A stretch of DNA of 64,000 nucleotides, taken from Candidatus Thioglobus autotrophicus (GTDB taxonomy: Bacteria; Pseudomonadota; Gammaproteobacteria; PS1; Pseudothioglobaceae). The DNA is taken from contig NZ_CP010552.1 in NCBI RefSeq assembly GCF_001293165.1, positions 1,364,001 through 1,428,000 of the forward strand. Reading direction: 5' to 3'. Positions 2,220 to 40,262 of the stretch are shown here, piece by piece. The notes beneath the pieces were generated by a model. The model was not told the DNA's origin, made no database searches, and was given only the letters and a program-made list of their open reading frames with translations. How positions within the stretch are numbered: the stretch's first letter is position 1; every line of letters starts with the position of its first letter. The position numbers and the translations under genes are program-made.

Positions 2220-2282
2220 AATTAACTGGTTGGATTAATACAAGGTACTATAATACGATACTTTGATTCAATAATAGTAATA

Positions 2283-3707: not shown

Positions 3708-3713
3708 GCCGAT

Positions 3714-4712: not shown

Positions 4713-4971
4713 GTAGCTATTAAAAATATTGGAAATAATCAAAATCAAATCAAAATTTCTAACAAAAAACACTTAAAACACTTAAAACCCTTTGATTCCT
4801 TAGTTTGAAGGCAAATTGGCAGTTTTTAAAGGGCTTTTCTTTAAATTTATATGGCTAAAGTTAAGACCTATAAAAAAATGGAAAAATTTCCGAAATAATA
4901 GAAATGACTAAATTCCCACTATTTTTATTGTTAGAACGTAAGCTATTCAGGAAATAGCCAGTATTTTTTTC
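4713..4971. other. AT-rich convergent intergenic stretch
   Basis: Part of the 389-bp gap between the permease and the convergent hisD. I see short CTTAAAAC iterations near 4770-4790 but no open reading frame of interest, tRNA or clear terminator. The structured repeat described separately follows immediately. Confidence 0.5.
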
Positions 4972-5052
4972 TTGTGTGAGGCAGATCTTGTAAAATTTGA
5001 TTAAGCATAGTAAATCTATGCGATTGAAAATTTTAAAAATCTAACAAAACAC
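4972..5052 (+). repeat. 81-nt structured intergenic repeat, copy A
   Basis: Begins TTGTGTGAGGCAGAT and ends ACAAAACAC. The centre is a hairpin GCATAG-taaat-CTATGC flanked by further imperfectly complementary AT-rich arms and an AGAT/ATCT pair. A second copy lies in inverted orientation at 54553-54634. About 60 of 81 positions match, with both ends and the central stem conserved. Both copies sit between convergent genes. Confidence 0.8.
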
Positions 5053-5101
5053 TCGGTTCAGTACCCCCTTGAGGGGTAGAAGGAAAAAGACGCAGTTATT
5101 T

Positions 5102-6394: not shown

Positions 6395-7008
6395 AGGTTT
6401 TTTTCAATGGCTTTAATCCACGCTTTAATAACTGTATTTTTAGTTTTAAATGAGGCGCTGTTGACTACTAAGCGTGAGCTAATATCTACAATATGGTCTA
6501 ATGGGATAAGGCCGTTAGCTTTTAGGGTATTGCCGGTATCAACCAAATCCACAATGCAGTGCGACAAGCCAACCACAGGGGCAAGCTCCATCGCGCCATA
6601 TAATTTGATGATTTCACAAGGCTGGCCTTTTTTCTCAAAGTATTGTTTGGCAGATTTTACGTATTTTGTTGCTACTTTTAAAACACCCGTTTGTTGATAA
6701 TCTGGAGATTTAGCAGCCACCATAAGTTTGCACTTAGCAATGCCCAAATCCAACATTTCAAAAAGCCCATTAGCACCATGCTCAAGAAGCACATCTTTAC
6801 CAGCAATGCCTATATCAGCAGCGCCATGTTGTACAAAAACGGGCACATCAGTGGCTCGAATAATAATGACTTTTATATCCTCAAGGTTAGTATCCAGAAT
6901 TAGCTTACGAGAATTAAGCTCTTCATCAGCAATTTCTAGTCCAGCTTTTTTTAATAAGGGTAGGGTTTGCTCTAAGATTCTGCCTTTAGATAGTGCTATG
7001 GTTAACAT
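6391..7008 (-). CDS. hisG: ATP phosphoribosyltransferase, short form
   Basis: First and feedback-regulated step of histidine synthesis: ATP plus PRPP to phosphoribosyl-ATP. 205 residues, with [12 protein letters not shown] at the start and the PRPP-binding segment [17 protein letters not shown] (about 150-166). It lacks the C-terminal ACT-like regulatory domain of the long form, so by family knowledge it needs a HisZ partner, which is not in this window. It overlaps hisD by 4 bp and follows murA after 12 bp. Confidence 0.96.
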
Positions 7009-7020
7009 GATATTTTTTCT

Positions 7021-8280: not shown

Positions 8281-8930
8281 TATTTCTGATTGAGTTTATC
8301 AAAGGTTTTTTGAATTAAACTGTCTAAGCCTTTACGTTTAATATGTGAGTTAAACTGTGCGTTATAATTTTTAACAACACTTACGCCAGCAAACACCACA
8401 TCATATATTCTCCAGCGTTCATTCCTAATCATTTTTAAAGTAATTAGTGAAGGTTTGCTTTGTGCGTTGGCTTTAATTTCAAGCTTAACCAAGGCCTTAT
8501 TGTCCTTTCTTAAAACTTTTTTCTGTAAGGCGATTTCGACAAAATCTATATCCTTATAGGAATGCAGCATGCCGACATAATCTTTGATTAAAGAGTGTTC
8601 AATGTAGTTAATAAACAATTGTTTTTGTGCAATATTTAATTGATCCCAGTGATCTTCAAGAGCGATTTGGGTGCTAGTCTGCATATCGATAAAAGGCAAA
8701 ACCTTTATCTTAACTAGGCTTGTGGTGTTTTCTATTGAGGCTTGCTCGGATTTTTTCAGCTCTTTAAATGAAGAAAGCGCACTAAGCATAATGTTAAGAG
8801 CTGCTGCACCAGGAGGATCAAGAATTTCAATTACCTCTTTTTTATCAATGGGAATTTTAGGAGCCTCTGATTGTGCAAAAGCAAAGTTCATTTGCAGGAT
8901 AGATAATATAATAAGAGCTGTTTTTATCAT
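8280..8930 (-). CDS. mlaC: MlaC/Ttg2D-like periplasmic phospholipid-binding protein
   Basis: 216 residues with a cleavable signal peptide (hydrophobic stretch to about residue 18, site near FAFAQS). The mature part matches the Tol-Tol-Ttg2 toluene-tolerance (MlaC) fold family in size and in the C-terminal region (NERWRIYDVVFAGVSVVKNY), which lines the lipid pocket in MlaC. MlaC shuttles phospholipids between outer-membrane MlaA and inner-membrane MlaFEDB. Here only mlaC is present, directly before murA, as in the usual mla-murA order; the transporter genes must be elsewhere. It heads the leftward operon; the 48-bp gap to divergent uvrC must hold promoters for both. Confidence 0.85.
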   Translation of the reverse strand: MIKTALIILSILQMNFAFAQSEAPKIPIDKKEVIEILDPPGAAALNIMLSALSSFKELKKSEQASIENTTSLVKIKVLPFIDMQTSTQIALEDHWDQLNIAQKQLFINYIEHSLIKDYVGMLHSYKDIDFVEIALQKKVLRKDNKALVKLEIKANAQSKPSLITLKMIRNERWRIYDVVFAGVSVVKNYNAQFNSHIKRKGLDSLIQKTFDKLNQK

Positions 8931-8978
8931 TATTTATAGTAAGAAATAAATTTTGTTTTTATTTTACCTTTTTCACTT

Positions 8979-10769
8979 ATGTCTATTCAAGAAAAACTTG
9001 ACAATCTAACGCAAAATTCTGGTGTTTATCAAATGCTGGATAAACAGGGTTTAGTCATTTATGTAGGCAAGGCTAAAAACCTAAAAAATCGAGTTTCTAG
9101 CTATTTTGTTAAACATCATGATAGCGGCAAGACTCGAGCACTTGTCGCTAATATTGATAGCTTTGAGGTGTTGCTAACTGAGACCGAAACCCAAGCACTA
9201 TTACTTGAGGCAGAGCTGATTAAACAGCATATGCCTAGATACAATATTTTGTTAAAAGATTCAAAGAGTTACCCTTATATTGCTATTAGTAATGACAAAC
9301 ATCCTAGAGTGAGTTTTTTTAGAGGAAAAAAACAAGAAAAATGCCAGTATTTTGGACCATACCCCTCGGCTCATGTGGTGCGAGACTCTCTTGGGTTGCT
9401 AAAGAAGATATTTAAAGTAAGGCAATGCACTAATGCAACTTATAGATCTAGATCTAGAGCGTGTTTGGAGTATCAAATCGGTTTGTGTAGTGCGCCTTGT
9501 GTCGGGCATATTAACGATGAAAATTATCAGCAAGATGTCAAGATGATGTCTTTGTTTTTGGCAGGTAAGGGCAAGCAAACTTTAGATAAAATTTCTCAAA
9601 AAATGCAAATTGCATCAGCCAATCAAGAATTTGAGCTCGCTGCACACTTGCGTGACCAACTGATTGATTTAAGAAAAATTCAAGAGCGGCATGCTTCAAA
9701 CTCTACAGCGGATATGGATGTTATTGCTGTTTATCAGCAAGATGGTGTTAATGCAATTGAGGTGTTGTTTATTCGTTCGGGTAAGCAAGTAGGGCAAGAG
9801 TTTATTTTGCCGAAAAACTCATCCCATCAAGCGGTTGAAGTGGTTCTGAGTGCTTTTTTGCCTTTGTATTATGTCGGAAAAGACACCCCGAAACAACTAC
9901 TACTTAGTCATCAACTGTTAGACAAAAAAATTATTTCCACGGCGCTCAATACCCATATTATTGACGCCCCAGGCAAGAATAAAAAGCATTATTTAAACAT
10001 TGCAAATTTAACCGTTAAAGAAAATCTTAATCAAAATCTTTTGGCCAGATTTAGAAAGAAATCAACCCTCGTGCATTTGCAAAGTATTTTGAATTTAAAA
10101 AAACTGCCAGAAACAATGGAGTGTTTTGATATCAGCCATATGATGGGTGAATCCACTACAGCTTCGTGTGTTGTGTTTGAAAAAGGCGTGCCGAAAGTGA
10201 GTAAGTATCGTCAATTTGACATTAAAAATATCACCCCAGGCGATGATTATGCGGCGATGAATCAAGTGATTTTTCGGCGTTATTCTAAACGTTTAAAAAA
10301 CAAACAGCCATTGCCAGACTTGGTCTTTGTTGATGGTGGATTGGGTCAGCTTAATCAAGCTATTATGGTCATGGATTCTATTGGCATTGACGAGGTTCAA
10401 TTGGTTGGTGTTGCTAAGGGTGAAAAACGCAAAGCTGGTTTGGAGACGCTAATCACTGTTGATCAGGGGCAAGTACATAAGATTAATCTGCCACCCCATG
10501 ATCCAGCTCTTATGCTGATTAATCACATTCGCGATGAATCGCACCGTTTTGCGATTAAAAATCATCGGATAAAACGCTCTAAAAATCGTACCACTTCGCC
10601 TTTAGAATCTATTTCTGGGGTGGGTAAATTAAGGCGAGCTGCACTGCTCAATTATTTTGGCGGACTCCAAGAAATCAAACAAGCGTCTGTTGATGAAATT
10701 CAAAAAGTCCATGGTATTAATTTAGCATTAGCGACTAAAATAGTCGAAACACTCAACGCATCTAGGTAG
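8979..10769 (+). CDS. uvrC: UvrABC excinuclease subunit C
   Basis: Makes the dual incisions in nucleotide excision repair after UvrA2B damage recognition. 596 residues. The N-terminal GIY-YIG nuclease (GVYQM then VIYVGKAKNLKNRV) covers about 1-95; the Cys-rich linker (RACLEYQIGLCSAPCVG, about 163) is followed by a UVR helix pair (about 200-235). The RNase H-like nuclease starts around 380 (MECFDISHMMGE; DLVFVDGGLGQL). The C-terminal helix-hairpin-helix repeats (SISGVGKLRRAALLNYFGG) end the protein. A 58-residue membrane gene follows after 5 bp. Confidence 0.97.
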   Translation: MSIQEKLDNLTQNSGVYQMLDKQGLVIYVGKAKNLKNRVSSYFVKHHDSGKTRALVANIDSFEVLLTETETQALLLEAELIKQHMPRYNILLKDSKSYPYIAISNDKHPRVSFFRGKKQEKCQYFGPYPSAHVVRDSLGLLKKIFKVRQCTNATYRSRSRACLEYQIGLCSAPCVGHINDENYQQDVKMMSLFLAGKGKQTLDKISQKMQIASANQEFELAAHLRDQLIDLRKIQERHASNSTADMDVIAVYQQDGVNAIEVLFIRSGKQVGQEFILPKNSSHQAVEVVLSAFLPLYYVGKDTPKQLLLSHQLLDKKIISTALNTHIIDAPGKNKKHYLNIANLTVKENLNQNLLARFRKKSTLVHLQSILNLKKLPETMECFDISHMMGESTTASCVVFEKGVPKVSKYRQFDIKNITPGDDYAAMNQVIFRRYSKRLKNKQPLPDLVFVDGGLGQLNQAIMVMDSIGIDEVQLVGVAKGEKRKAGLETLITVDQGQVHKINLPPHDPALMLINHIRDESHRFAIKNHRIKRSKNRTTSPLESISGVGKLRRAALLNYFGGLQEIKQASVDEIQKVHGINLALATKIVETLNASR

Positions 10770-10774
10770 GAACT

Positions 10775-10951
10775 ATGTTTTTAATTCGTCTTTTAATTAT
10801 TGCTTTTATTGTTGGTTATTGTGTCTGGTTTATCAGCAATAAAGTATTAGGAAAAAATTTAAAAATAGCACGAGTGATTGCCGCAACTTTGATTGTTACG
10901 ACAGTTATTTATCTGTTATTAGGCGGTTTGTCGTATTTGCTAGAAGGCTAA
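10775..10951 (+). CDS. Small two-helix membrane protein (58 aa), unrecognised
   Basis: An ATG 5 bp after the uvrC stop opens a 58-residue frame ending TAA. It begins MFLIRLLIIAFIVGYCVWF, continues through a basic loop (NKVLGKNLKIAR) and ends with a second hydrophobic stretch (VIAATLIVTTVIYLLLGG). GTAGG seven to eight bases before the ATG could be a ribosome-binding site. The alternating charge and hydrophobicity look like a real small membrane protein cotranscribed with uvrC. I do not recognise a family and assign no function. Confidence 0.6.
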   Translation: MFLIRLLIIAFIVGYCVWFISNKVLGKNLKIARVIAATLIVTTVIYLLLGGLSYLLEG

Positions 10952-10958
10952 TTTTTTG

Positions 10959-11288
10959 CTAAAGGTTATTGGCGCTTAAATGTAAGCCAATAACCCCAGC
11001 AACAATCAAAAGAATGCTAAAAAATTTCACAAAGCTAATAGATTCTTCGAAATACATAATACCAATCACAGTGATGAGTACTGTACCTAGTCCTGCCCAA
11101 ATGGCATAAGCAATACCCATTTCAAACTTTTTTAAGGCCAAGGTTAAGGCGATAAATGATAAGGCATAGCAAACAAAGATTAGCACAGAGGGTAAGAGTT
11201 TGCTAAAACCATCTGAGAGTTTCATAGCAGTCGTGCCAGCCACTTCAAGAGCAATAGCCAATATTAAAAATAACCAAGCTTGACTCAT
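10959..11288 (-). CDS. Small multidrug resistance (SMR) family transporter
   Basis: 109 residues and four membrane helices, the standard SMR size. The first helix holds the membrane-embedded glutamate in LAIALEVAGTTAMKLS (Glu about 14), which couples proton and substrate binding. The loop after helix 2 reads AYAIWAGLGTVLITVIG, of the EmrE/Qac type rather than the guanidinium exporter (SugE/Gdx) type. It probably exports quaternary cations or acts as a homodimeric antiporter. The start overlaps the HAD gene stop by 4 bp (ATGA), making it the last gene of the leftward uup operon. Confidence 0.9.
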   Translation of the reverse strand: MSQAWLFLILAIALEVAGTTAMKLSDGFSKLLPSVLIFVCYALSFIALTLALKKFEMGIAYAIWAGLGTVLITVIGIMYFEESISFVKFFSILLIVAGVIGLHLSANNL

Positions 11289-11830
11289 GATGCTTTTTTG
11301 GAAATAAGTAGCGTGTTTAAATGGGCTGTGTGCTTGATAATTTTGTTAGTGACATTTACCAAAATTGACAAGTTTGACGCCTCCCAAACTGGCATATCGC
11401 GCATATGATCACCCATATAATCAAATCCCTTATGGCCAAAACGCTCAATAAGCTTATCAGCTTTATTGTGCGAAGATAGGTTGAAATCGGCATTACTAGC
11501 CATAACGTCATCAAACAAATCAATGTGTTTGGCAACGGCAAAAGCGTAGTCTTTGTGCGAAGCTGTTGCTAAAATAATGCTCGATCCTTGTTGTTTACGC
11601 TCATGAATATAATCAATGGTTTCTTGCAGGTAGGGTAGGCTAGATACGTCTACTGTAAAACGTTTAACCAGTTGATCTTTCAAATAACCCTTGCCTTTAA
11701 AAAACCAAAACGGATAAAGCAAAATCAGCCAAGGTTGTTTTTTAAGAGTACCTAGGGAAGATTCGTATAATAAGTCGGTGTTAATAAGGGTGTGGTCCAG
11801 GTCAACAATAAGCGGTATTTTTTTATTCAT
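11285..11830 (-). CDS. HAD-superfamily hydrolase
   Basis: About 181 residues. HAD motif I is VDLDHTLINTD (DxDxT nucleophile), motif II IILATAS, and motif IV GDHMRD with the two acidic Mg ligands. This segment resembles the HAD domain that in some proteins is fused to a UbiA prenyltransferase; here it stands alone. Substrate unknown. I chose the ATG at 11830 (MNKKIPL) because it forms an ATGA overlap with the upstream uup stop; an ATG 15 bp upstream lies inside uup. Confidence 0.8.
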   Translation of the reverse strand: MNKKIPLIVDLDHTLINTDLLYESSLGTLKKQPWLILLYPFWFFKGKGYLKDQLVKRFTVDVSSLPYLQETIDYIHERKQQGSSIILATASHKDYAFAVAKHIDLFDDVMASNADFNLSSHNKADKLIERFGHKGFDYMGDHMRDMPVWEASNLSILVNVTNKIIKHTAHLNTLLISKKAS

Positions 11831-13680
11831 TCTAGCTCTCCCCATTGGTCAAAGTAGCGTTCTAAATCCGCTTCTAATCTGGCTAGGCGAATGAGTGCAT
11901 CTTGCGATTCATCTGTTTGGAAAAATTCTGGGTCTGAGAGTAGCATCTGAATTTCTCCAATTTCAATTTCAGTTTTTTCAATTTTTTCAGGCAATTGCTT
12001 TAACGCTTGTTGTTGCTTGTAGTTAAGTTTCTTAGGGTTGTTAGCAGTTGAATTTTCAGCCTTTGGTTTGGGCTTTGTTTTGGTTTTTTGAGTCGCTACC
12101 TTGTCCTGTTTTTGAATCAGATAATCATCATAGCCACCTGCATATTGATTAATAACACCATCTCCATCGAGTACCACAGTTGAGCCAACAACATTATTTA
12201 AAAAAGTTCGATCGTGAGAAATTAAAATCAGTGTGCCTTTGTAATCCACCAGCATTTCTTCTAGAAGCTCGAGGGTTTCTACATCTAAATCATTGGTGGG
12301 CTCATCAAGCACAAGCAGGTTGGCAGGTTGAGATAGGATTTTAGCGAGCATGAGTCGATTCTTCTCGCCACCAGAAAACATCCTAATTGGTGCCATGGCT
12401 TGCTTGCCTGTGAATAAAAACTGGCGTAAATAACCGATAATATGCTTACTCTTGCCGCCAATATCAATATGTTCACGACCGCCAGAGACAAAGTCCATGG
12501 CTTTCATATTTGGATCAAGATTATCACGCATTTGATCAAAATAGGCGAGTTGAATGGTTTTGGAGCGTCGTATTGTGCCCTTGGTTGGCTGTAGTTCGTC
12601 TAGTAGTAGCTTGATGAATGTAGATTTACCGCTACCATTGCCACCAATGATGCCAATTTTCTCACCTTTTAAAACCAACATTGAGAAGTCTTTGACCAGC
12701 TCCAAACCTGCTATTTCATAGGAAATTTTTCTCACTTCAAAGACGACTTTTGAAGCCCTATTTTCATCTTCTAAAGCATGAATTTTAACGTTGCCTTTTT
12801 TCGCACGACGATCAGTGAAAGATTTGCGCATAGACTCTAAAGACCGAACCCTGCCTTCATTTCGGGTGCGACGAGCTTTAATACCTTGGCGAATCCAAAC
12901 TTCTTCTTGAGCCAGTTTTTTATCAAAGCGAGCATTGGCAATCTCCTCAGCATGAAGCTGTTCATCTTTACGTTTTACATAAGCTTTGTAGTCGCATTCA
13001 AAGACACTTAAACGTCCTCGATCAAGATCAAAAACTTTGTTCACAATGCCGGCAATGAATGAGCGGTCATGACTAATAATAACCAGGGTTCCGTGGTATT
13101 CCTTTAGCATGCGTTCCAAATCCAAAATGGCAGTAATATCCATATGGTTGGTTGGCTCGTCTAGTAATAGTACGTCAGGCTCTTGAATTAAAGCGCGTGC
13201 TAACATAACGCGACGCCTCCAGCCGCCTGATAAAGTGGCAAGCGAGGTTTGTGGATTGAGTGAAAATCGATTAAGAATAGCCTCGATTTTGTGTAAGTAT
13301 TGCCAACCATCGAGCTGGTCAATTTTCTGTTGAAAATCACCAGCTTTATCAAGCTCACCAATATGAATAAAATGTTGATATTGAGCGATAATATCGCCAA
13401 TTTCACCCAAACCTTCAGACACAATATTAAACAGAATTTTGTCATTGTCTTCAGGTGGCATTTGCTCTAAAAAGCTAATTTTTATGCCATTTTTAACCTT
13501 TAATTTGCCATCATCGGGCTCGATAGAGCCAGCTAAAATGCGCATAAAGGTTGATTTTCCTTCGCCATTTCGACCAATCAGAGCGATTTTGTCACCTTTT
13601 AAGATGGTGGAGCTAACCTCGTTGAGTATGGGCTTATCTGAAAAACTCAAAGAAATTTTATCAAGTGTAATTAATGGCAT
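11827..13680 (-). CDS. uup: ABC-F ATPase, Uup type
   Basis: Soluble ABC protein with two ATPase domains and no membrane part; ABC-F proteins act on ribosomes, and Uup also affects transposon excision and branched DNA in E. coli. 617 residues. Domain 1: Walker A GRNGEGKS (about 37), signature LSGGWRRRV, Walker B LLLDEPTNHMD. Linker with QGIKARRTRNEGRVRSLE, typical of Uup. Domain 2: GGNGSGKS, FSGGEKNRLMLAKIL, LLVLDEPTNDLD. A C-terminal coiled coil (about 540-617) matches the Uup DNA-binding tail. First gene of the leftward uup-HAD-SMR operon. Confidence 0.93.
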   Translation of the reverse strand: MPLITLDKISLSFSDKPILNEVSSTILKGDKIALIGRNGEGKSTFMRILAGSIEPDDGKLKVKNGIKISFLEQMPPEDNDKILFNIVSEGLGEIGDIIAQYQHFIHIGELDKAGDFQQKIDQLDGWQYLHKIEAILNRFSLNPQTSLATLSGGWRRRVMLARALIQEPDVLLLDEPTNHMDITAILDLERMLKEYHGTLVIISHDRSFIAGIVNKVFDLDRGRLSVFECDYKAYVKRKDEQLHAEEIANARFDKKLAQEEVWIRQGIKARRTRNEGRVRSLESMRKSFTDRRAKKGNVKIHALEDENRASKVVFEVRKISYEIAGLELVKDFSMLVLKGEKIGIIGGNGSGKSTFIKLLLDELQPTKGTIRRSKTIQLAYFDQMRDNLDPNMKAMDFVSGGREHIDIGGKSKHIIGYLRQFLFTGKQAMAPIRMFSGGEKNRLMLAKILSQPANLLVLDEPTNDLDVETLELLEEMLVDYKGTLILISHDRTFLNNVVGSTVVLDGDGVINQYAGGYDDYLIQKQDKVATQKTKTKPKPKAENSTANNPKKLNYKQQQALKQLPEKIEKTEIEIGEIQMLLSDPEFFQTDESQDALIRLARLEADLERYFDQWGELE

Positions 13681-19611: not shown

Positions 19612-19687
19612 GGGGCGTTAGCTCAGTTGGTAGAGCATCGGACTTTTAATCCGCTGGTCGAGCGTTCAAATCGCTCACGCCCCACCA
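19612..19687 (+). tRNA. tRNA-Lys (anticodon UUU)
   Basis: 76 nt. Acceptor arms GGGGCGT / ACGCCCC with encoded CCA; D arm GCTC-AGTTGGTA-GAGC; anticodon loop CTTTTAA; T arm GAGCG-TTCAAAT-CGCTC. The outer anticodon-stem pair is a T-C mismatch. Its 3' half is duplicated exactly at 23760-23809, so this gene is the attachment site of the adjacent island and its present 3' half was brought by the element. Confidence 0.97.
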
Positions 19688-19692
19688 TATTA
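19643..19692 (+). repeat. attL: 50-bp direct repeat, left copy
   Basis: Covers the anticodon loop to 5 bp past the CCA of tRNA-Lys. Identical to 23760-23809 at all 50 positions. Confidence 0.95.
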
Positions 19693-19879
19693 TTTAATGT
19701 TTTAATTCCTTAAAACCGCTTAAAACCCTCAAAAACCCCTTAAAACACACTCCATGCAATCTTTTTGTATGGCGTTTTTTGGCGTTTTATTAGTGCGGAT
19801 AGTTGTCCAATAGTCTTATAGAGCTGTTTAGGCCGATATAGAATGCTTTAGGCTTGTTTGTGTTGTCTTAAAATAAGTA

Positions 19880-19899
19880 AGTGGCAACATAATGACAAC
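19880..19899 (+). repeat. 20-bp direct repeat, left copy (possible recombinase arm site)
   Basis: AGTGGCAACATAATGACAAC, identical and in the same orientation at 23646-23665. Both lie inside the island, 187 bp from attL and 94 bp from attR. Confidence 0.8.
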
Positions 19900-20057
19900 G
19901 CCAAATTAATTTTCAAGCTTTATTGGGTGATTTTTCTTGTATTTAAGATAAGTGAAGATAGTGTTAATACACAACTTGAAGGGTGCCTAAGATTGGCTGA
20001 CCACTACACGTGAATTTTTACACATTCACGATAGAGTAATTTTTCATATAGACTATT

Positions 20058-20090: not shown

Positions 20091-21446
20091 ATGAAGCGTA
20101 TAAAAATTATGGCAGTTGTAATAACAGTACTCAGCTTTAACTCTGTTAGATCTGAGTTGCCAAGTAGTATCCAGCATAAATTAATGGACTTATCAGGTGT
20201 AATATCGATTACCAATATTCCAAAATTAGAGACAACAGTTCAACGCAATCAATTTTTTGATAACTATTCAGCATTATCGATACCAGATATTAAAACTATT
20301 GATCAAACACAGTTACAAAATATTCAAACCTTTTCTCCTAGTCATAGAAAGATTAGTTTGGGCGGTCTATATAAAATTAAAGATATTACTTCTGGATTGG
20401 TATTACAAGATGTAACAGTAACACCTGAAGACTTTAAAGGTATTGGTATGCAAGATGGGAAGATTGTAGTTCCTAATATAGCCGATAAGAGTCAACAAGT
20501 TAAAGATATTTTAGAAGCCACAAACACTATTCTTCAAGAGGTAAAGAGTCTTAATCAGAAAGAGTTAAATTCATTAAAGCTAACCATTTCTGATATGAGG
20601 AATATGCAGAAGATTATGCCAATAATTCAACAGCAATTAGACGGATCTACATTTAAGGACGAAAAGATAAATGGCGTAAGTGCAGATGTTGATGCGATGA
20701 CTGCTGAGATGAGCAATGCAAAGAAAGAGCTGTTCACTTTGATCCCCAACCTTACATTTGCTGATTTTGATCAAATGGCTAATGCTGGCGTGTCTACAAA
20801 TGGAAAACTTATTTTACCTAACTATAATAAAGATACTGCTAGTAACAATCTTAACAGGTTTATTGAGATATCTAATCAGGGCTCTAAATATGTTGATGCG
20901 GAGTTATTGTCTGCCACACCTTCTTTGGCTGATATAAATACATTCTCAGGCCAGCCACATACATTTGTAATGAAAGGCCCCGAGTCAGTCACAGGAAAGA
21001 AAAATGGATTTTTGAATATTGTGCCCGATCTTGGAATGGCCGCCAAAATCTTTGATTCTAATTTAAGTTCTGCAGTGACATCTGCGGTGCCAGTATTTAA
21101 TTGGGATAACAACTCAGGATCCTTATTGACAGCCAATACAGCTAATGGGCTTTCAGGGGCTCAGTTGTTATCAGCAGTAGCTGATACCAGCCTATATAAT
21201 ACCAATCTAGTGTCTGCGAATACAGGCCCAAGTGCATTTGAGTATATGAGTAATACATCTTTTGCAACGTTTGAAACCTTTCAGGATAAGCCGCTCCTTC
21301 CTTTTCCAAATATGAGCTTAAATAATGATCTCGGAGGGCTTTGCCCTATAGGAACAGCCTGTAGACAAAAGCTTTCAATTGGTGATTTGAATGGGGCATT
21401 TAATGAGATGATGAATAATCTTCCAGAGGATGCAAGGCCTAGATAA
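20091..21446 (+). CDS. Secreted protein sharing blocks with the DUF1302 protein
   Basis: 451 residues with a type I signal peptide (KRIK, hydrophobic core, cut near VRSELPS); no lipobox cysteine. The N-terminal 280 residues are helical and polar with repeated phrases of the form DxxxMxNAGVSTNGKLILPN and MQDGKIVVPN, an internal duplication of unknown meaning. The C-terminal part matches the chromosomal DUF1302 protein at 35078 in two blocks: TFVMKGPESVTGKKNGFLNI (about 290) and EYMSNTSFATFETFQD (about 383). It therefore seems to carry an outer-membrane-protein loop module without the barrel. The next gene, Slam-like, begins 1 bp later, so this may be its export substrate; that is inference. 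No family recognised. Confidence 0.7.
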   Translation: MKRIKIMAVVITVLSFNSVRSELPSSIQHKLMDLSGVISITNIPKLETTVQRNQFFDNYSALSIPDIKTIDQTQLQNIQTFSPSHRKISLGGLYKIKDITSGLVLQDVTVTPEDFKGIGMQDGKIVVPNIADKSQQVKDILEATNTILQEVKSLNQKELNSLKLTISDMRNMQKIMPIIQQQLDGSTFKDEKINGVSADVDAMTAEMSNAKKELFTLIPNLTFADFDQMANAGVSTNGKLILPNYNKDTASNNLNRFIEISNQGSKYVDAELLSATPSLADINTFSGQPHTFVMKGPESVTGKKNGFLNIVPDLGMAAKIFDSNLSSAVTSAVPVFNWDNNSGSLLTANTANGLSGAQLLSAVADTSLYNTNLVSANTGPSAFEYMSNTSFATFETFQDKPLLPFPNMSLNNDLGGLCPIGTACRQKLSIGDLNGAFNEMMNNLPEDARPR

Positions 21447-21447
21447 T

Positions 21448-22611
21448 ATGAATTATAAGTCTATTCTATCAGTAGCTATATCGTTCTATTTGGTACAAGG
21501 TGTTGCAATGGCAAATAATGACATCGTTGCTTTGTTTAAGCAAGGTATTACAGAGAGTTCTAAGGGTAACTGCAAAGAAGCAATCCCATATTTTGAGTCA
21601 GCTTTGGAAATTGATCAGAATATTAATCGTATTCAAATTGAGCTGGCTAAGTGCTTATATTTAACTGGAGATAGTAAGAGGGCAAAAGAGTACTTTACTA
21701 AGTCTCTTGACTATCCGAATGATATTGCAGTGCAGCAAAGTATCTTACTATTTCTACAAGAAATCTCAAAGAAAGAGCCTGTGGTTAGATGGAGTGCTAG
21801 CTTAGTATACGATAGTAATCCAACAGGGTCTTCAGATATCGACAGTATTAATATCAACGGCATTCAGTACAATGTTGACTCAAAGCCAAAAGCTAGTTGG
21901 GGCGCTAATTTAACTCACTATACTAAGAATAGACCGTTTAAAGATTCAGACTATTTTGTAGAAACTATTGCTAGCACTGCTTATTTTGATAAACATGATA
22001 ACACTCAAGTTTCGGCTGATATTAATCTTGGCAAGGAAGTTATGATTAGTCCGTCCTCTTTAATGACGGTTAAAGGACTATATAACAAGACATATTATCA
22101 GGGCGATCACTTGCTCGATAGTACAGGTATCAATGCAACTATATACCATCAGCTTGATGGTGGCAATACTGGAATATACGGACTTACCATTAAAGATTTT
22201 GATTACACTGAATCACGTTCTGCATATTCTGGCACTGATAAGAAATTTCAGTTTGGAATCAATACACAGCCTAAAGACGGGGTCAGTTACTTTGGAGAGG
22301 TTTCTTATGCGACATATTCAGCTGATAGAAATAGTGACAGCAACAAAACACGTGGCTTACAATTTAATGCCTCTGGAGATGTAGTTTCAGCGTTGATAGG
22401 TCTATCTAAGGTTGAGTATGACGGTATTGATGAGACGTACAGCGTGGTGCGTGACGATACTAAGAGAAAGGTTGAATTTACTATAAAGCCTAAAACCCAA
22501 TTCATTAACGATCTTAACCTGAATATTGTTTTAGGATACAGCGAGACTGACTCAAATATAGCTAGCTACACTTCTAACAAGTCATACGTCTATTTTAAGA
22601 AGCCTTTGTAG
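21448..22611 (+). CDS. Slam-like TPR plus outer-membrane beta-barrel protein (DUF560-like)
   Basis: 387 residues. Signal peptide to about 22 (YLVQGVAMAN), TPR-like region (about 25-115: AIPYFESALEIDQNINRIQ, ELAKCLYLTGDSKRAKEYF), then a barrel of alternating polar/hydrophobic strands starting at VVRWSASLVYDSNPTGSS. This order and the junction pattern match the surface lipoprotein assembly modifier family, which moves lipoproteins and some soluble proteins to the cell surface. I use the ATG at 21448, 1 bp after the upstream stop; an upstream alternative start overlaps that gene. The C-terminus ends KKPL, without the usual terminal aromatic residue, so the barrel may be shortened. Confidence 0.65.
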   Translation: MNYKSILSVAISFYLVQGVAMANNDIVALFKQGITESSKGNCKEAIPYFESALEIDQNINRIQIELAKCLYLTGDSKRAKEYFTKSLDYPNDIAVQQSILLFLQEISKKEPVVRWSASLVYDSNPTGSSDIDSININGIQYNVDSKPKASWGANLTHYTKNRPFKDSDYFVETIASTAYFDKHDNTQVSADINLGKEVMISPSSLMTVKGLYNKTYYQGDHLLDSTGINATIYHQLDGGNTGIYGLTIKDFDYTESRSAYSGTDKKFQFGINTQPKDGVSYFGEVSYATYSADRNSDSNKTRGLQFNASGDVVSALIGLSKVEYDGIDETYSVVRDDTKRKVEFTIKPKTQFINDLNLNIVLGYSETDSNIASYTSNKSYVYFKKPL

Positions 22612-22624
22612 GTAGGAGCTAATA

Positions 22625-23554
22625 ATGTTCAAATTAATATCAATAAAAAATAAGCTGCGTTTGAATATATCAGTGCCTTTCCTTCTTTTATTGTCACTCA
22701 ATAGTTATTCCATTGGTGTAAATAAAGACACAACAATTAATCATGTTATTAGTCATTCAAAACCTTATGGCTATATAACTAGTTCTGACATTGTGAGAAA
22801 AGGTAAAGAGTCACAACGATTTGAAATTCGACATGGCGATTGTGGATATGATAAGGATTGGAATGATTGTGAAAATGATAGGCGACGAATTGAAAGATAT
22901 TTAAAACCTGTTTTATCTGAAAAACCTGAAGGGGTTGTTTGGTACTCATGGAGTATGTATTTACCTGAGGATTTTGAACAACTACACCCCACAAATACAA
23001 CACTTGGTCAAGTAAAAATTCATGGATATGGTGAGCCTCTTTGGTACATAAATGCTAGAAAGAAAGGTATTAAAATTAGGTTTGACGCATCTAAGCAAAA
23101 ATGTAGATTGATTAAATTTGAAGATGCCATTGGGAAATGGACGGACTTCTTAATGAAAGTTGATTACAGTACTAATGAAGAAAATTACAAATCATATTCT
23201 GAAATTTATGTAAACGGTAAGCATAAAGATTGTGAAATAAATGAACCTGTATTAACTAAAGAAGTTTTAAGAAATAGAAACAAAAGAAAAACATTGAAAA
23301 TTAACTTTAGATATGGAATATATAACTCATATGTTTCGAAGTGGCTAGATGAGCATAAGAATAAAGATGTTGATACCAAAGGATGGTCACATTTACACGC
23401 AGAGTCTGGAATGATTGTTAACAGTGTAACCAATAAACCGTGGGAATTTGATTGGGGTGTTAAGTTGCCAACCCAGGTGATTTATTATGATGAAGTTAGG
23501 GTTGGATCAACACGAGAGGATGTTGATATTTATATGAATGGTCCAGTAGACTGA
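22625..23554 (+). CDS. Polysaccharide-lyase-like secreted protein
   Basis: 309 residues with an N-terminal signal/anchor (about 14-32) after a basic stretch. The mature part has QRFEIRHGDCGYDKDWNDCE, DRRRIERY, VVWYSWSMYLPEDFEQ and YYDEVRVGSTREDVDI, a layout typical of the jelly-roll heparin-lyase-like family (polysaccharide lyase fold, Pfam Polysacc_lyase). It would cleave an acidic polysaccharide outside the cytoplasm; substrate unknown. GTAGGTAGGAG before the ATG is a good ribosome site. Third gene of the island cassette, 13 bp after the Slam-like gene, so it could be exported or displayed with it. Confidence 0.65.
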   Translation: MFKLISIKNKLRLNISVPFLLLLSLNSYSIGVNKDTTINHVISHSKPYGYITSSDIVRKGKESQRFEIRHGDCGYDKDWNDCENDRRRIERYLKPVLSEKPEGVVWYSWSMYLPEDFEQLHPTNTTLGQVKIHGYGEPLWYINARKKGIKIRFDASKQKCRLIKFEDAIGKWTDFLMKVDYSTNEENYKSYSEIYVNGKHKDCEINEPVLTKEVLRNRNKRKTLKINFRYGIYNSYVSKWLDEHKNKDVDTKGWSHLHAESGMIVNSVTNKPWEFDWGVKLPTQVIYYDEVRVGSTREDVDIYMNGPVD

Positions 23555-23759
23555 CATTCGATATATTGGTATAATATTTTCAGAAGCAAAGAGTCGTAAT
23601 ATGGTGATCAAGAAGGCGGATTAATTAAAGTTGAAAAAGATTAAAAGTGGCAACATAATGACAACAAGAAACCGCTTTAAACGCCTTATATCATTTTAAA
23701 GTGATAAAAAAGTGCTTTAGTAGGGCGGTATAGGGCGTTTTTAGATGTTCTAGGCAAGT
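23555..23759. other. Island right flank, non-coding
   Basis: No gene seen. Holds the second 20-bp repeat (23646-23665) and a GGGCGGTATAGGGCG motif (about 23722-23736) next to attR. Confidence 0.5.
23646..23665 (+). repeat. 20-bp direct repeat, right copy
   Basis: Identical to 19880-19899 (AGTGGCAACATAATGACAAC), same orientation. Confidence 0.8.
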
Positions 23760-23809
23760 CTTTTAATCCGCTGGTCGAGCGTTCAAATCGCTCACGCCCC
23801 ACCATATTA
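23760..23809 (+). repeat. attR: duplicated 3' half of tRNA-Lys
   Basis: Exact 50-bp copy of 19643-19692. It lacks the tRNA 5' half and is not a functional gene; it is the displaced original 3' end of the tRNA. Confidence 0.95.
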
Positions 23810-26020: not shown

Positions 26021-26779
26021 CTAGAAAGAGCCCTCTTTAGCGCCTTCAATAATCGCACTCATTTTTTCAGCCACATCCATAGCTGGGCCAAGCGCCGAAT
26101 CAGGTAGATTCATTGCCTGCATGACATCTACATTCATACTCACCATTCTAATCTTGCCGTCCTTGCCTTCAACTACAGCAATCCGACAAGGTAAGATCAC
26201 CGCGTAACGATCATCGATATCGGCAATTTTTCCAGCAGTTGCTGCGTCACAAATATTATGAATGGTTAAGTGGCGATAAGGCTTGCCCGTTACATTAGCA
26301 ATCTGCTCACTGAGTGGAAACATCGCCACGTGCAAAATTGATTCATTAGTCGCCATGGATTTGATGGATTCATCAACTTCTGGGCCGCTAATACCTTCAT
26401 CTACTTCAGTGATTTGTACCATTTGCAAAAACATCTCTGGGGTAATTTTAGCTGGCTCGTCGTCTGTTACTGATTGAACAGTCTCTTGCAAAGTGTTGCC
26501 TGCCGCTTTGGCAGCGTCCATGGGATTGAAGCCTCTATCCTGCCAATTGTGGCCACTATTAAATGGAGTAAAAGAATTCGATCCAGTATTAAAGTTAAAG
26601 GGGCGAGTGTTGCTAAAGGGGTTGAAATAGCTGTTGTTATTCCACGGCGTAAAGCTACTGTTATTATTAGGATAAGGGTTGTTGTAGTTAGTATTGTTCC
26701 AAGGATTCCAATTTTGAGCATTGGCAAGACTCATGCTAAGTGCGCTGGTTAATGCCAGAGTCAAGGTTAATTTCTTCAT
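26021..26779 (-). CDS. Exported DUF302 protein with Asn/Pro/Trp-rich linker
   Basis: 252 residues. Signal peptide to about 21 (SMSLANAQ), a low-complexity region (about 22-80) with repeated PWNN, PYPNNN, PFNS phrases, then a DUF302 domain (about 110-240) with HVAMFPLSEQIANVTGKPYR, HLTIHNICDAATA and VILPCRIAVVEGKDGK. DUF302 proteins are small alpha/beta proteins found in many sulfur bacteria; the role is not settled. The linker is unlike the usual domain and could hold it away from the membrane or wall. A good ribosome site (GGAGAG) precedes the ATG. Confidence 0.8.
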   Translation of the reverse strand: MKKLTLTLALTSALSMSLANAQNWNPWNNTNYNNPYPNNNSSFTPWNNNSYFNPFSNTRPFNFNTGSNSFTPFNSGHNWQDRGFNPMDAAKAAGNTLQETVQSVTDDEPAKITPEMFLQMVQITEVDEGISGPEVDESIKSMATNESILHVAMFPLSEQIANVTGKPYRHLTIHNICDAATAGKIADIDDRYAVILPCRIAVVEGKDGKIRMVSMNVDVMQAMNLPDSALGPAMDVAEKMSAIIEGAKEGSF

Positions 26780-29956: not shown

Positions 29957-30634
29957 TTATTCAAAAATTTTATCCATATCGGTGTCTTTAATTATTAATC
30001 CTTTATTATCGCCAAATACTTTTGAGGTTTGTTTGGCAAATATTTGATAGTCATTACGACTACCGATTTCACCAACTACGGCATTTAATTCATTTTTATT
30101 GCAAATATATTCACCTGATTCAGATCCTAAGTATTCAAAAATACTTGATTTAACCAAAGAGGTTTTAGGATGTATTTTATGATGTATGTAATTTAAATTG
30201 ACATATACAGAGAGTACTGGCAGGCCAAAATCTCCATCAATCATATTAGCTTTAAATTTCCCCTGAAATAACGACCCAGATCTTTTATATTTGGCATTAA
30301 AGTACATGGTGTGACTGGTTCCGAGTTTTTGCATAAATTTTGAAATTCCATTCTCAGATTCTTGCTTTAGGATCAAATGATAATGGTTAGGGAGTAGGCA
30401 ATAGGCAACAATTGAAACTAGCTTTTGTTGATCTAAGAAATGGATTTTTTCACCCTTTCGTTTAAATCTTTGCGTTGTGAATTTGGTACCAGAATCATCA
30501 ATATTTAAATCAGCTAGCCTATTTAAAAAGTATTGAATATCTTTGGTATCTTTAAATATAGATCGCTTATCCACGCCACGATTAAACACATGGTAATATT
30601 GATCTTCTACAAAGGTTGTTTTTCGTATTGCCAT
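29957..30634 (-). CDS. REP-associated tyrosine transposase (RAYT-1)
   Basis: 225 residues of the IS200-like Y1 family. Opens MAIRKTTFVEDQYYHVFNRG; the HUH pair is in LLPNHYHLILKQ (about 85-95); RAYT signature GTSHTMYFNAKYKRSGSLFQ GKFKA follows with a conserved Tyr in YFN. RAYTs nick and join single-stranded REP hairpins. I start at ATG 30634; an upstream TTG in frame at 30670 lies inside the palindrome. About 60-70% similar by eye to the second copy at 40263. It sits between two perfect palindromes of one family. Confidence 0.9.
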   Translation of the reverse strand: MAIRKTTFVEDQYYHVFNRGVDKRSIFKDTKDIQYFLNRLADLNIDDSGTKFTTQRFKRKGEKIHFLDQQKLVSIVAYCLLPNHYHLILKQESENGISKFMQKLGTSHTMYFNAKYKRSGSLFQGKFKANMIDGDFGLPVLSVYVNLNYIHHKIHPKTSLVKSSIFEYLGSESGEYICNKNELNAVVGEIGSRNDYQIFAKQTSKVFGDNKGLIIKDTDMDKIFE

Positions 30635-30650
30635 GAAATTATCATAACAT

Positions 30651-30689
30651 AAATACAGGGTGACAGGCAAGGCCTGTCACCCTGTATTT
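30651..30689. repeat. REP-like palindrome 1b (right of RAYT-1)
   Basis: Perfect 18-bp stem (arm AAATACAGGGTGACAGGC) with loop AAG. Overlaps the last two bases of the rsgA stop codon and lies 16 bp upstream of the RAYT-1 start, so it may also end rsgA transcription. Confidence 0.95.
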
Positions 30690-34047: not shown

Positions 34048-34998
34048 ATGAAGCAAATCGCTTTATCGGTTGCAGTTGCAGCCAGTCTTGTAGCAGGTGC
34101 TGCAACAGCCGTAGTATCTAAAGATCTAGCTTATCCATCAGGCAGCGTGTCTGCTAATGATGTTGCTGAGCAAAACTACTTTGTTAATCATTTCTATTCT
34201 TTTGGTAATTATGCAATTACTAAAAAAGGTAAAGAAATTACTGCACTTATTCTTCGAGCTAAAGACTCAAGCCCTTTAACCCTTACCTTAGAACGCTACT
34301 TAAACAACGAGCCGGACGCTGCCGGTGTTAATGCACAAGATCTAGCGATTTTCCGTTCAGGCAAGCTAAAAGGTACAGGAATGCTAATTACGGATTTTTC
34401 TGATCAAGCAAAATCACAATCATATGAAATCTTCATTCCATCAATTCGCAAAGTTCGTCGTTTCGCCGAGCCTGCACGTGACGATGCATGGGGTGGTTCA
34501 GACTTTACCTTTGGCGATGTAACACTACGTAAGCCAAAGCATGAATCTCACGAGCTATTAGGCAAAGCAACATTTTCTGGCTGTTTAGGCGTAATGAAAG
34601 ATGTTGAGCGTAATAAATACACACAAAACGCTAAAATCGAAGCAGATTGCTCTACTGACGGTAAAGAGGTTTACAAACTTAAATCAACCGCTAATGATGC
34701 AAACTGGTGGTACGACAACCGCGTAAGCTACATCGATGCCAAAACATTTGCTGACTACCGCACTGAATACTTCAAAGGCGGCAAGCAAGTTAAAACCATT
34801 GATAGATCTTGGGTGTCTGCAGGTATCGACGATCCACGTGGCAGCTACTGGGGCTACTGGTACGGTACAACACTAGCAACTGGTCATGAAACCATGGCAT
34901 TCATTCCATCAAGCGTCACCAAGGTAAATCATAAATATAAAGCAAAAAATTTATGGTCAACCCGTACGTTAAAGAAGATGCCTAAGAAAATAAAATAA
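34048..34998 (+). CDS. Outer-membrane lipoprotein-sorting-like protein (LolA-like fold)
   Basis: 316 residues, signal peptide to about 21 (AGAATAVVS). The mature part has GTGMLITDFSDQAKSQSYEI and IPSIRKVRRFAEPARDDAWG, followed by GGSDFTFGDVTLR and many Trp/Tyr residues; this is the pattern of the LolA-like outer membrane lipoprotein-sorting family. Such proteins are found with DUF1302 and MMPL/RND genes, exactly the order here, and are thought to carry hydrophobic cargo across the periplasm. Cargo unknown. A REP-like hairpin with a T-run ends the gene. Confidence 0.85.
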   Translation: MKQIALSVAVAASLVAGAATAVVSKDLAYPSGSVSANDVAEQNYFVNHFYSFGNYAITKKGKEITALILRAKDSSPLTLTLERYLNNEPDAAGVNAQDLAIFRSGKLKGTGMLITDFSDQAKSQSYEIFIPSIRKVRRFAEPARDDAWGGSDFTFGDVTLRKPKHESHELLGKATFSGCLGVMKDVERNKYTQNAKIEADCSTDGKEVYKLKSTANDANWWYDNRVSYIDAKTFADYRTEYFKGGKQVKTIDRSWVSAGIDDPRGSYWGYWYGTTLATGHETMAFIPSSVTKVNHKYKAKNLWSTRTLKKMPKKIK

Positions 34999-35077: not shown

Positions 35078-37069
35078 ATGAAAAAACAAAACTTAATATT
35101 ATCAGCTGCCTTAGCAGTAGTATTCTCAGCTTCAACGGCTTTTGCCGAAGCTGAGGTAACGGGTAAGATCGTGCATGAATCTGCCAATTTTACCACATCG
35201 GGTATTGGTATTGGTGCGGCAACGACATCAACTCAAACGGCTAATTCTCATGGCAAAGATACATTTAAACAAGAAACTTCAGCCCGCATCTATATTGATG
35301 GCGAGGCTGATACATTGCAAGAGGGTGCTACGTACCATGTGGAACTAAACTTAATGCGTGATTCTAAGGGTGCTGGTGATTATGATTCTAATGAATCGTA
35401 CACTCAGCGCGATGCACTTCGTGAAGCTTATGTTGATGCAGAGACTAATGGTTATTCAATTCGCGCTGGTAAACAGCAAGTGGTTTGGGGTACTGCTGAT
35501 GGTATGAAGCTATTAGATGCAATTAATCCAACAGATTATTCTGAAATGGCACAAAATCAAATGGAAGATTCCCGTATGCCAGTATGGATGCTTAATGCTG
35601 AAACGGATGCTGCTGATGGCGGTAACTGGCAATTTATTGTATCAGAAGGAAAATCAAGCCATTTTTCTGGTATGGGAAACGAGTCGACGACAGCTGCGAC
35701 CACGCATTACTCACTTAGTGATTCTGGCAATGCATTTGTTATGAAGGGTGTTGACACCATCACTGGCAAGGTTAATGGCATATTAAACGTTGTCCCTGCA
35801 ATGGGAGTTGTCGCCAGGTCATTTGAAAGAGCGGGGCAAAGCTTGGGTTTTGGTCATGGCGCACTACCAGGGTTTAATAAAGCAAGTGTTGACGATTTTA
35901 TGACAAATCAAGCCTCTGCTCAAAATTTTAGAGGTATTTGTACTGGAGGATCATCGTCAACCGCTTCTTGTATGGAGAAAATTGTAAATACCGCATCTAC
36001 AGAACGTGGTATTACAGGGCAAACTACTCTTGGTGCAGCCAATGCTAATGCTCAAAACTTGTTTTCAGATACTACCGCTGCCCAGTGGACTGCAGGTAAA
36101 GCCAATCCAACTTCAACGTTTCATTATATGCCGGAGGCAACTTTTGCAACTTTTGGACAATTTCAAGATATTAAATCTAAATACTTAGTTGATCATGATT
36201 CAACGCCAACACTTGCTACAAGGTATAAAAATACAACTGACAATGGGTTGAATTATTCGATAAATGCTTTACATGGTAATGATACAAATCCATATATTGA
36301 CACCTATTGGACAAGTAGTGTTGATGGTGCTGTTCTTACTGAAACTAGAAGTAAGACTAATGACTATGTAACTAATAATCTTGGTGATGGATCCACAGTT
36401 GGTAACAATACTAAGGAACACGCTATTTTTAATATGGTTGAAAAACTAAATAAAATTACTCAGTTGGGTGGTTCATTCGACACTGCAATTGAAACAGCGT
36501 CGCTAGGCCCTGTAGTATTAAGGGGTGAGGCTTTATACCAAAAAGGTGTAATGTCACCTGTTGTTACCCGTAAAGATAGATTGGGTGTTGACTTAAATCA
36601 CGGTTTCTTGGTAGAGTCTTTAAAAATGGTTAAAGGTGATCGTTTTAAATATGTATTAGGTGCCGATATGACAGCATTGACTAATATGATGATGTCAATT
36701 CAATTTATTCAAGATATGAATCTTGATTATGTAAATGTTGGTAATTCTGGCACAGCTGATTGGAGATATACTGCTGATCAAGCAACTATGCATTTAACTA
36801 ACAATCTTAATAAAGCTGAAAAGAATAAAGAGTTTTATTCTTTATTCTTCTCTAAGCCATTTGGTGCTTCAGGCGAACATAGATGGAACAACATCTTTAT
36901 GTTTGAAGAGAATGATGGTAAGTGGAATCGTTTAGATGCTGAATTCTCAATTGATGATGATACTCAAGCAACAGTTGAGTACAACAAATACTGGGGTGAT
37001 GAAAATACTCAGTTTGGTCAATTAGAAAAATCATCTAATATCCAAGTTGGCGTTAAATACTCTTTCTAA
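35078..37069 (+). CDS. DUF1302 family outer-membrane protein
   Basis: 663 residues, signal peptide to about 23 (STAFAEAEV). Beta-rich with the DUF1302 hallmarks DALREAYVDAETNGYSIRAG and KQQVVWGTADGMKLLDAINP, and a C-terminal strand ending in F (NIQVGVKYSF), the barrel-assembly signal. Residues about 215-365 form a long insert with FVMKGVDTITGKVNGILNVV and TFHYMPEATFATFGQFQD, shared with the island gene at 20091. Probably the outer-membrane part of a LolA-like/DUF1302/RND transport system. Confidence 0.88.
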   Translation: MKKQNLILSAALAVVFSASTAFAEAEVTGKIVHESANFTTSGIGIGAATTSTQTANSHGKDTFKQETSARIYIDGEADTLQEGATYHVELNLMRDSKGAGDYDSNESYTQRDALREAYVDAETNGYSIRAGKQQVVWGTADGMKLLDAINPTDYSEMAQNQMEDSRMPVWMLNAETDAADGGNWQFIVSEGKSSHFSGMGNESTTAATTHYSLSDSGNAFVMKGVDTITGKVNGILNVVPAMGVVARSFERAGQSLGFGHGALPGFNKASVDDFMTNQASAQNFRGICTGGSSSTASCMEKIVNTASTERGITGQTTLGAANANAQNLFSDTTAAQWTAGKANPTSTFHYMPEATFATFGQFQDIKSKYLVDHDSTPTLATRYKNTTDNGLNYSINALHGNDTNPYIDTYWTSSVDGAVLTETRSKTNDYVTNNLGDGSTVGNNTKEHAIFNMVEKLNKITQLGGSFDTAIETASLGPVVLRGEALYQKGVMSPVVTRKDRLGVDLNHGFLVESLKMVKGDRFKYVLGADMTALTNMMMSIQFIQDMNLDYVNVGNSGTADWRYTADQATMHLTNNLNKAEKNKEFYSLFFSKPFGASGEHRWNNIFMFEENDGKWNRLDAEFSIDDDTQATVEYNKYWGDENTQFGQLEKSSNIQVGVKYSF

Positions 37070-40241: not shown

Positions 40242-40262
40242 GAAACGTGGTATTATCTAAAT

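Follow-up and report, generated by a model that had tools for sequence, protein, structure and literature searches.

The 64-kb stretch of DNA analysed here (the window; positions 1364001-1428000 in the genome of Candidatus Thioglobus autotrophicus, which is one contig of 1,512,449 bases) holds a 4.1-kb integrative element in a tRNA-Lys gene. The element is probably non-autonomous, with attP-like ends around a three-gene envelope operon. The genes encode P1, a protein with a Sec-type leader whose C-terminal half appears to share loop segments with D, an outer-membrane protein encoded outside the island and about 14 kb away; P2, which by its predicted architecture resembles the Slam proteins of the outer membrane; and P3, a predicted polysaccharide lyase. 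We propose, as the joint best explanation, a non-autonomous tRNA-Lys element with a P1-P2-P3 envelope operon in which P1 would be exported by P2, and we put its probability at about 0.5. The initial annotation of this DNA, made from the sequence, had described a possible mobile cassette of a secreted protein, a Slam-like barrel and a lyase. The three open reading frames (ORFs) at 20091-23554 and their 1-bp and 13-bp gaps are confirmed by the ORF calls, and mobility is borne out by the duplicated att sequence and by an empty site in the relative G001. The tRNA-Lys gene and its 50-nt copy on either side of the genes, the absence of an integrase and the homology between P1 and the loops of D had escaped that annotation.

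A probable non-autonomous element in tRNA-Lys

The integration target is tRNA-Lys(ttt) (19612-19687, + strand), recognised by ARAGORN and by Rfam (RF00005), this tRNA being the sole match of the Rfam scan. The attL core (19643-19692, +) comprises the 3' part of the tRNA from the anticodon loop and a few bases past it, and the attR core (23760-23809, +) is a copy of this 3' part; together they form a perfect 50-nt direct repeat with starts 4,117 bp apart. The conserved left end (19688-19945, +), delimited by comparison and by its repeats, shows TTAAAAC-type repeats about 9-11 bp apart past the tRNA and has a mean column identity of 84% to two other elements. The conserved right end (23641-23760, +) was delimited by alignment and by the right-end model R1 described below. 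Both ends contain the motif GTGGCAACATAATGACAAC: at 19881-19899 (+) it lies 194 bp from the tRNA end, and at 23647-23665 (+) the tRNA core follows it after 113 bp. Another direct repeat, AAGTGGCAACATAATGACAAC, is present at 19879 and 23645. The empty site is found in G001, where tRNA-Lys runs straight into the right flank of this island, followed by a homologue of the next ORF (152 versus 155 aa) and then by an FKBP gene. Short matches to the right flank also follow tRNA-Lys in G008 (contig C51, 45 nt) and in G004 (25 nt, to the contig end), and the gene order of G007 is compatible with an empty site.

No match to the integrase profile PF00589 was found inside the island or at this tRNA-Lys. 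The host genome has eight such matches in seven places, five of which adjoin tRNA-Ser (two), tRNA-Leu, tmRNA or a tRNA-Pro/Arg/His cluster. With an attL and an attR and no internal recombinase, the island is similar to a cis- or trans-mobilisable element (CIME-like); the sign of movement by a helper is the spread of such elements over sites and genomes. Viral contigs yielded neither the right end nor relatives of P1, P2 or P3; phage records queried with P1 and P3 yielded none, and plasmid records none for P1 and five weak relatives of P3. The window contains a separate island at 58624-61263, in which tRNA-Ser is followed by a 396-aa tyrosine integrase and a phage-replication-like ORF (by eye). 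The three genes of the present island are all on the + strand, and it is from their order and their 1-bp and 13-bp spacing that we take them to form one operon.

A putative family of cargo elements with common ends

Comparison of the end sequences assigns the island to a putative family of integrase-less cargo elements at tRNA-Lys and tRNA-Asn in SUP05/Thioglobus relatives, with differing cargo. The model R1, built from seven right-end sequences and searched against 83 family genomes at E <= 0.001, matched in 12 of them. Nine places, in 6 of the 83 genomes, are strong (at least 86 bits); the model had been built from seven of them, and the two others are in G003 and in a second place of the host genome. 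The remaining 11 matches are weak (20-26 bits), four of them being the reverse strand of strong places. The left-end model R2, built from three sequences, matched in 6 of the 83 genomes, namely the three builders, G026 (3e-12) and two weak cases. G026 belongs to another genus and built neither model; it holds both ends in the correct order, the right one at 25.7 bits (1.1e-5). Its element is bounded by tRNA-Asn and by a copy of the 3' part of that tRNA, the two cores being 12,841 bp apart, and shows no integrase ORF by eye, no integrase-profile scan having been made. Its cargo comprises BrnT/BrnA, urea-transport-type genes and urease genes, with Pfam assignments for six proteins (UreG, UreF, urease alpha, a periplasmic binding protein, BrnT and BrnA) and labels by eye for the others. 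This element occupies about 1-12920 of locus L138 (G026:C67), with the right copy at the contig edge.

Fic and ParE genes lie between or beside the ends in G008, VapBC-like and other toxin-antitoxin-like ORFs (labels by eye) in G005, and a 1,059-bp unit with a Gp49-family toxin (HigB-like by eye) and an antitoxin-like partner (by eye) in G027. In the G027 unit (L103, G027:C6, 413-1637) two right ends stand 1,059 bp apart with only the toxin-antitoxin-like pair between them. Both tRNA-Lys and tRNA-Asn are used as sites. An exact-pattern scan of the genome contig collection with part of the right end retrieved seven stretches: two from Ca. Thioglobus, one from SUP05, one from a Bathymodiolus symbiont and two from one uncultured gammaproteobacterial metagenome-assembled genome (MAG), while the seventh, from an Oscillospiraceae MAG, was taken as chance.

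The end motif repeats directly with a period of 11 bp. On the left it lies 194, 195, 193 and 216 bp from the tRNA end (in G000, which is the host genome, G005, G008 and G026, respectively). On the right it lies 113, 113, 113 and 115 bp before the tRNA core (G000, two in G027, G026) and 157, 157 and 156 bp from the tRNA end (G000, G005, G006). The TTAAAAC-type repeats that stand at intervals of 9-11 bp beyond the tRNA of G000 have similar counterparts in G005, G008 and G026. Arm sites of tyrosine integrases are expected to look like such repeated end motifs. In a comparison of four two-ended elements, left and right motif are more alike within an element than between elements: the likeness sums to 70 of 76, the mean over pairings being 49.75. 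In G005 the two ends come from different contigs and were treated as a single element, and elements without an R2-type left end were omitted. Several points weigh against the attP-like reading of the ends: the sum of 70 is reached by 2 of the 24 pairings of the four elements, the true pairing included; the right-end motif of the host's own tRNA-Asn locus differs from the motif beside its tRNA; and no tRNA copy follows the right ends of G003, of G008:C2 and of the own Asn locus. With up to three mismatches the end motif occurs in 23 of the 83 genomes, compared with five single matches of a reversed control, and these inexact matches were not used as evidence.

Beyond the host genome, the exact motif occurs among the 83 genomes only in G006 and G027. 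In G006 the right end and a tRNA-Asn copy are directly followed by an integrase gene (399-codon frame, PF00589 and DUF6538; locus L095, G006:C84, 811-2203), the product of which is 50% identical to the integrase at tRNA-Leu of the host genome. It is a candidate helper only, and its own flank is unlike the left end (by eye). The second right end of the host genome lies behind tRNA-Asn (L023, 4920-8490; G000 about 129919-133489), together with Fic-like and RelE-like sequence (by eye), and is followed by non-tRNA sequence that is also found in G003 and G008. A left end of a second type, with CGACAAATTGTCGACAATA-type repeats that look hairpin-like by eye, lies 3' of the tRNA-Lys att at L102 and L100 and suggests another element family at the same tRNA-Lys site.

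Integrase-less islands are known elsewhere. In Dehalococcoides, 15 ssrA islands without an integration module have been proposed to be cis-mobilisable (PMC3146451). Like the present island, they are bounded by repeats of the 3' end of an RNA gene and lack an integrase; they are associated with a serine recombinase and with ssrA, whereas here the sites are tRNA-Lys/Asn, the conserved ends measure about 120 and 250 bp, and no integrase-bearing sibling was recognised. Repeats of the tRNA-Lys end also bound the cassettes of additive flexible islands in streamlined aquatic bacteria (Methylophilaceae; PMC10872708); conserved attP-like ends are present here, and the accessible portion of that article holds no mention of them for those cassettes. 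Tycheposons are likewise tRNA-borne cargo elements of marine bacteria, but they carry a tyrosine recombinase of their own (PMC10872708), for which the island has no PF00589 match. Hitcher elements are reviewed in PMC11389934. Since integrase-less tandem islands are known elsewhere, the novelty of the element lies in its better-defined ends. Nothing on integrase-less tRNA islands in SUP05/Thioglobus stood out among the literature matches listed, from which we claim no absence. Integrase-free cassettes with recognisable ends would offer a handle on the swapping of traits, such as urease and toxin-antitoxin genes, in the streamlined SUP05 bacteria.

P1, a predicted secreted protein with apparent transporter-loop segments

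P1 (451 aa; 20091-21446, +), the probable cargo, begins with the Sec-type leader MKRIKIMAVVITVLSFNSVRS, which has no lipobox cysteine (by eye). Profile comparisons indicate homology between its C-terminal half and loop segments of D (663 aa; 35078-37069, +), an AmeA/DUF1302-like outer-membrane protein, without the D strands tested. Matches to P1 occur in 12 of 193 genomes, the host included, and correspond to the inner part of outer-membrane-type proteins, D among them, with open frames mostly of 640-840 aa (two are shorter, 391 and 457). A hidden Markov model (HMM) of the D family that did not include P1 gives it 69.8 bits, mostly over residues 282-328 and 347-399. Residues 282-328 (20934-21074, +) match the first part of the large D-family loop 7-8 at 54.8 bits, residues 347-399 (21129-21287, +) match its second part at 41.5 bits, and residues 425-436, RQKLSIGDLNGA (21363-21398, +), resemble loop 13-14 at 9.4 bits; none of 2000 shuffles reached any of these scores, the best shuffle for loop 13-14 being 7.2. 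The D-family strand segments tested against P1 (8-11, 12-13, 14-15 and 16-20) gave no signal, two being at background and two unreported, and the whole HMM placed no stretch of P1 over D strands 1-7, which were not tested singly. P1 keeps all four D-family columns listed as invariant (G230, G234, G243, F249), each of which belongs to the shared loop. The nearest match of P1 is in a different family (G184, 45% identity) and not D (29%), so that P1 is no fresh local copy. Loop 5-6 of D against P1 (2.5 bits, reached by 13 of 2000 shuffles) and a third stretch at P1 134-267 (5.4 bits) were not counted, and one weak pair of segments within P1, considered as an internal repeat (10 of 500 shuffles), was dropped.

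The structural model of D places the segments matched by P1 in the intervals that separate its strands. Short turns connect strands 1-7, and likewise the final seven strands, on one side, with longer loops mostly on the other, and the matched loops would lie outside the cell when strands are counted from either end. The barrel part of D is similar to porins of the OprD type and to AlgE (Z about 20-22). A DUF1302 (PF06980) match is present in 1 of 12 D-family members (2.7e-7) and absent from D itself.

Some observations speak against this reading of P1. The D model has a mean pLDDT (predicted local distance difference test) of 57.7, with about 30-55 in the big loop, and the outer position of the loops therefore rests on strand counting; the limits of the loop segments were chosen after the alignment was seen. 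P1 has no recognised cargo barrel of the type XI secretion system (T11SS) and no Pfam family above cut-off, and the C-terminal 8-strand barrel of cluster-1 cargo (TbpBBD or Lipoprotein C) finds no Pfam match in it. Full-length P1, or the trio of genes, was found in no other genome, either among the 193 genomes or among the 83. This last result weakens the claim that the three genes are a functional unit and leaves the identity of the barrel untouched. The initial annotation had regarded P1 as a possible Slam cargo encoded next door and had named a lack of co-occurrence of the three genes as a point against its own proposal. In the searched genomes the lack is what was found, and in place of a Slam-cargo barrel P1 appears to carry segments of transporter loops. 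No PDB relative of P1 was found by sequence. We know of no secreted protein that consists of the outer loops of a transporter.

Cargo of the T11SS can adjoin a receptor gene, for example the haemophilin homologue HrpC with the haem receptor HrpA (PMC8406197, in which HrpB/HrpC were tested in E. coli). The sharing of D loops by P1 suggests such a link between cargo and receptor, or a decoy. In the decoy version, P1 would be a released mimic of D loops that serve phages or bacteriocins as receptor; P2 would export it, the lyase would strip receptor glycans, and the cassette would serve defence. Such a role would fit the loop segments that P1 keeps without any strand segment tested, and the toxin-antitoxin pairs and Fic gene of the sister elements, of the kind that defence and addiction islands often carry. 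Set against it, PADLOC returned no model match for the three proteins at E 0.01, and one sister element holds urease metabolism besides its toxin-antitoxin pair; we regard a defence cassette as rather unlikely.

It could also be supposed that the island is a decaying remnant from which int was deleted, P1 being a scrambled relic of a D-like gene. The missing integrase, a trio unique to the host genome in the searched sets and the absence of the tested strand segments from P1 would all agree with decay. However, the three ORFs are intact and tightly spaced, with two visible leaders besides that of P2, and P1 retains the four invariant loop positions of the D family. Moreover, other integrase-less elements have like ends at near-constant spacing, which parallel decay would not yield, and a remnant is therefore judged unlikely.

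P2 and P3, a predicted Slam-like protein and a predicted lyase

The exporter in the proposed P1-P2-P3 operon would be P2 (387 aa; 21448-22611, +), which profiles and a structural model identify by architecture as a divergent outer-membrane protein of Slam/T11SS-like type; if translation began at the in-frame ATG at 21430 it would have 393 aa. Slam/type XI outer-membrane proteins (DUF560, PF04575) have in common with the predicted P2 an N-terminal tetratricopeptide repeat (TPR) domain, a 14-strand barrel and an adjoining gene for a secreted protein. In the AlphaFold2 (AF2) model of P2 (23 sequences; pLDDT 85.8, predicted TM-score 0.69), residues 24-109 (21517-21774, +) form TPR helices, also recognised by Pfam and probably on the periplasmic side, and residues 112-386 (21781-22605, +) form a predicted outer-membrane barrel of 14 long strands, each of 11-16 residues. 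The best solved matches in VIA-align are CymA (Z 23.5, 269 aligned, 3.8 A) and OmpG (Z 20.0, 242 aligned, 3.6 A), which are 14-strand barrels. With Foldseek alone, Occ porins and BcsC come first with TM-scores below 0.5. No Slam structure is among the best 50 matches listed by Foldseek or VIA-align, which excludes nothing. By sequence, the solved structures retrieved with P2 are only TPR-type proteins.

Comparison with more distant relatives points the same way. In hhalign, P2 matched 22 full-length relatives, aligned without it, at 99.0% (E 2.6e-18), and its barrel alone matched them at 94.9% (E 4.6e-8), the 22 having been found by a profile that contained P2; a SlipAM match is present in 7 of the 22 and TPR_Slam in 11. 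In the 193 relatives, P2 matched, besides itself, only TPR-level or distant sequences, and two of these (L005 and L014) pass SlipAM PF04575. A profile of P2 with these two matched in 104 of 369 class genomes at 1e-5, many in the TPR part only. P2 alone matches TPR families in Pfam, and TPR_Slam at 1.5e-5, under the cut-off. A PF04575 scan of the host genome gave nothing, as did control genomes, and is hence uninformative; a scan of the genome contig collection with P2 gave none. FecR-like proteins and another secreted protein that recurs (by eye) are among the neighbours found up to about 1.5 kb from 29 P2 relatives.

A number of findings argue against P2 as a Slam-like exporter of P1. P2 alone has no SlipAM PF04575 match and no Pfam barrel match, its C-terminus is Leu and not the usual aromatic residue, the model also has two 4-residue strands (133-142) that were counted as a loop hairpin, and none of the listed neighbour ORFs of P2 relatives matches P1, P3 or D (blastp 0.1). 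The Slam-like barrel of the initial annotation thus holds in architecture, with which the TPR domain, the 14-strand model and the hhalign relation to SlipAM-type relatives agree; P2 alone adds no PF04575 match. The structure prediction that had been suggested as a check gave a TPR domain and 14 long strands with a pLDDT of 85.8. Lyases and hydrolases are commonly encoded with exopolysaccharide exporters, and BcsC, itself a TPR-barrel protein, and AlgE are among the top Foldseek matches, yet a role of P2 in exopolysaccharide export, like that of other TPR-plus-barrel exporters (BcsC, PgaA, AlgK/AlgE), with P3 as companion lyase and P1 as an accessory secreted protein, is very unlikely, since the P2 model has 14 long strands and not 16-18 (PgaA and BcsC have 16), the C-terminal motif of P2 is of the SlipAM type and the island holds no synthase or polymerase ORF. 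The difference between 16 and 14 strands is one reason why PgaA is set apart in PMC8406197.

All experimentally verified T11SS outer-membrane proteins belong to the animal-associated cluster 1, and other targeting domains have been raised as a possibility for a marine cluster (PMC12282271). Compared with cluster 1, P2 differs in the lack of a PF04575 match on its own and in its Leu end, and its neighbour P1 in the lack of the described 8-strand cargo barrel. A marine Slam-like protein beside a candidate cargo without known barrel would offer a concrete test of other targeting.

P3 (309 aa; 22625-23554, +) is assigned by profile to the PF14099 Polysacc_lyase family (3.6e-18; 66.6 bits for a curated cut-off of 29.9), which agrees with the lyase-like third gene proposed at first, and is a predicted lyase with a hydrophobic leader (by eye). 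Relatives of P3 occur in five other genomes of the 193 (23-31% identical, tblastn), and the stretches that hold them gave no tblastn match to P1 or P2. No solved relative of P3 was found by sequence.

Proposed mechanism

We propose that a tyrosine integrase of another element would bind the repeated arm sites in both ends and move the cassette in trans. P1 and P3 would enter the periplasm by Sec, and P2, with a periplasmic TPR dock and its 14-strand barrel, would hand P1 to the surface or to the medium. As a soluble counterpart of D's outer loops, P1 may bind the same ligand or partner as they do and thereby feed or block D, while P3 would trim a surface or matrix polysaccharide. It can be hypothesised, tentatively and as a doubtful proposition when taken whole, that P1 is a barrel-less ectodomain exported by a T11SS-like barrel without the known cargo code, acting as ligand carrier or decoy, and that the operon is carried by a class of attP cassettes free of an integrase, for which tRNA-Lys/Asn are common sites in different SUP05 genera. 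A T11SS cargo that consists of loops without a barrel would be new, if true, and a protein built of the outer loops of another transporter would reveal where loops of this kind bind.

The D locus and its surroundings

D is flanked by genes for a LolA-like periplasmic protein (34048-34998, +; PF17131, 4.4e-18) and for an MMPL/RND inner-membrane transporter (37250-40132, +; PF03176, 1.2e-26). This make-up is AmeA/AmeB/AmeD-like and recalls the AmeABCD apolar monoterpene RND (resistance-nodulation-division) system (DUF1302/DUF1329/HAE3; PMC6394551). It differs from that system in that no further ORF of at least 100 aa stands among the three D-locus genes as AmeC, and in that P1, which shares loop segments with D, lies on an island and showed no barrel strand over the strand segments compared. 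On either side of the stretch with the D operon stands a transposase-like ORF (REP/Y1 type by eye), at 29957-30670 (-) and 40230-40940 (+) of the window; the two are very similar. Secreted Asn/Gly/Trp/Phe-rich repeat proteins (GSNFGPF-type) are encoded at L023 8561-11567 (-), with a similar one at 26021-26779 (-) of the window; they are present in several copies and adjoin tRNA-Asn in relatives too.

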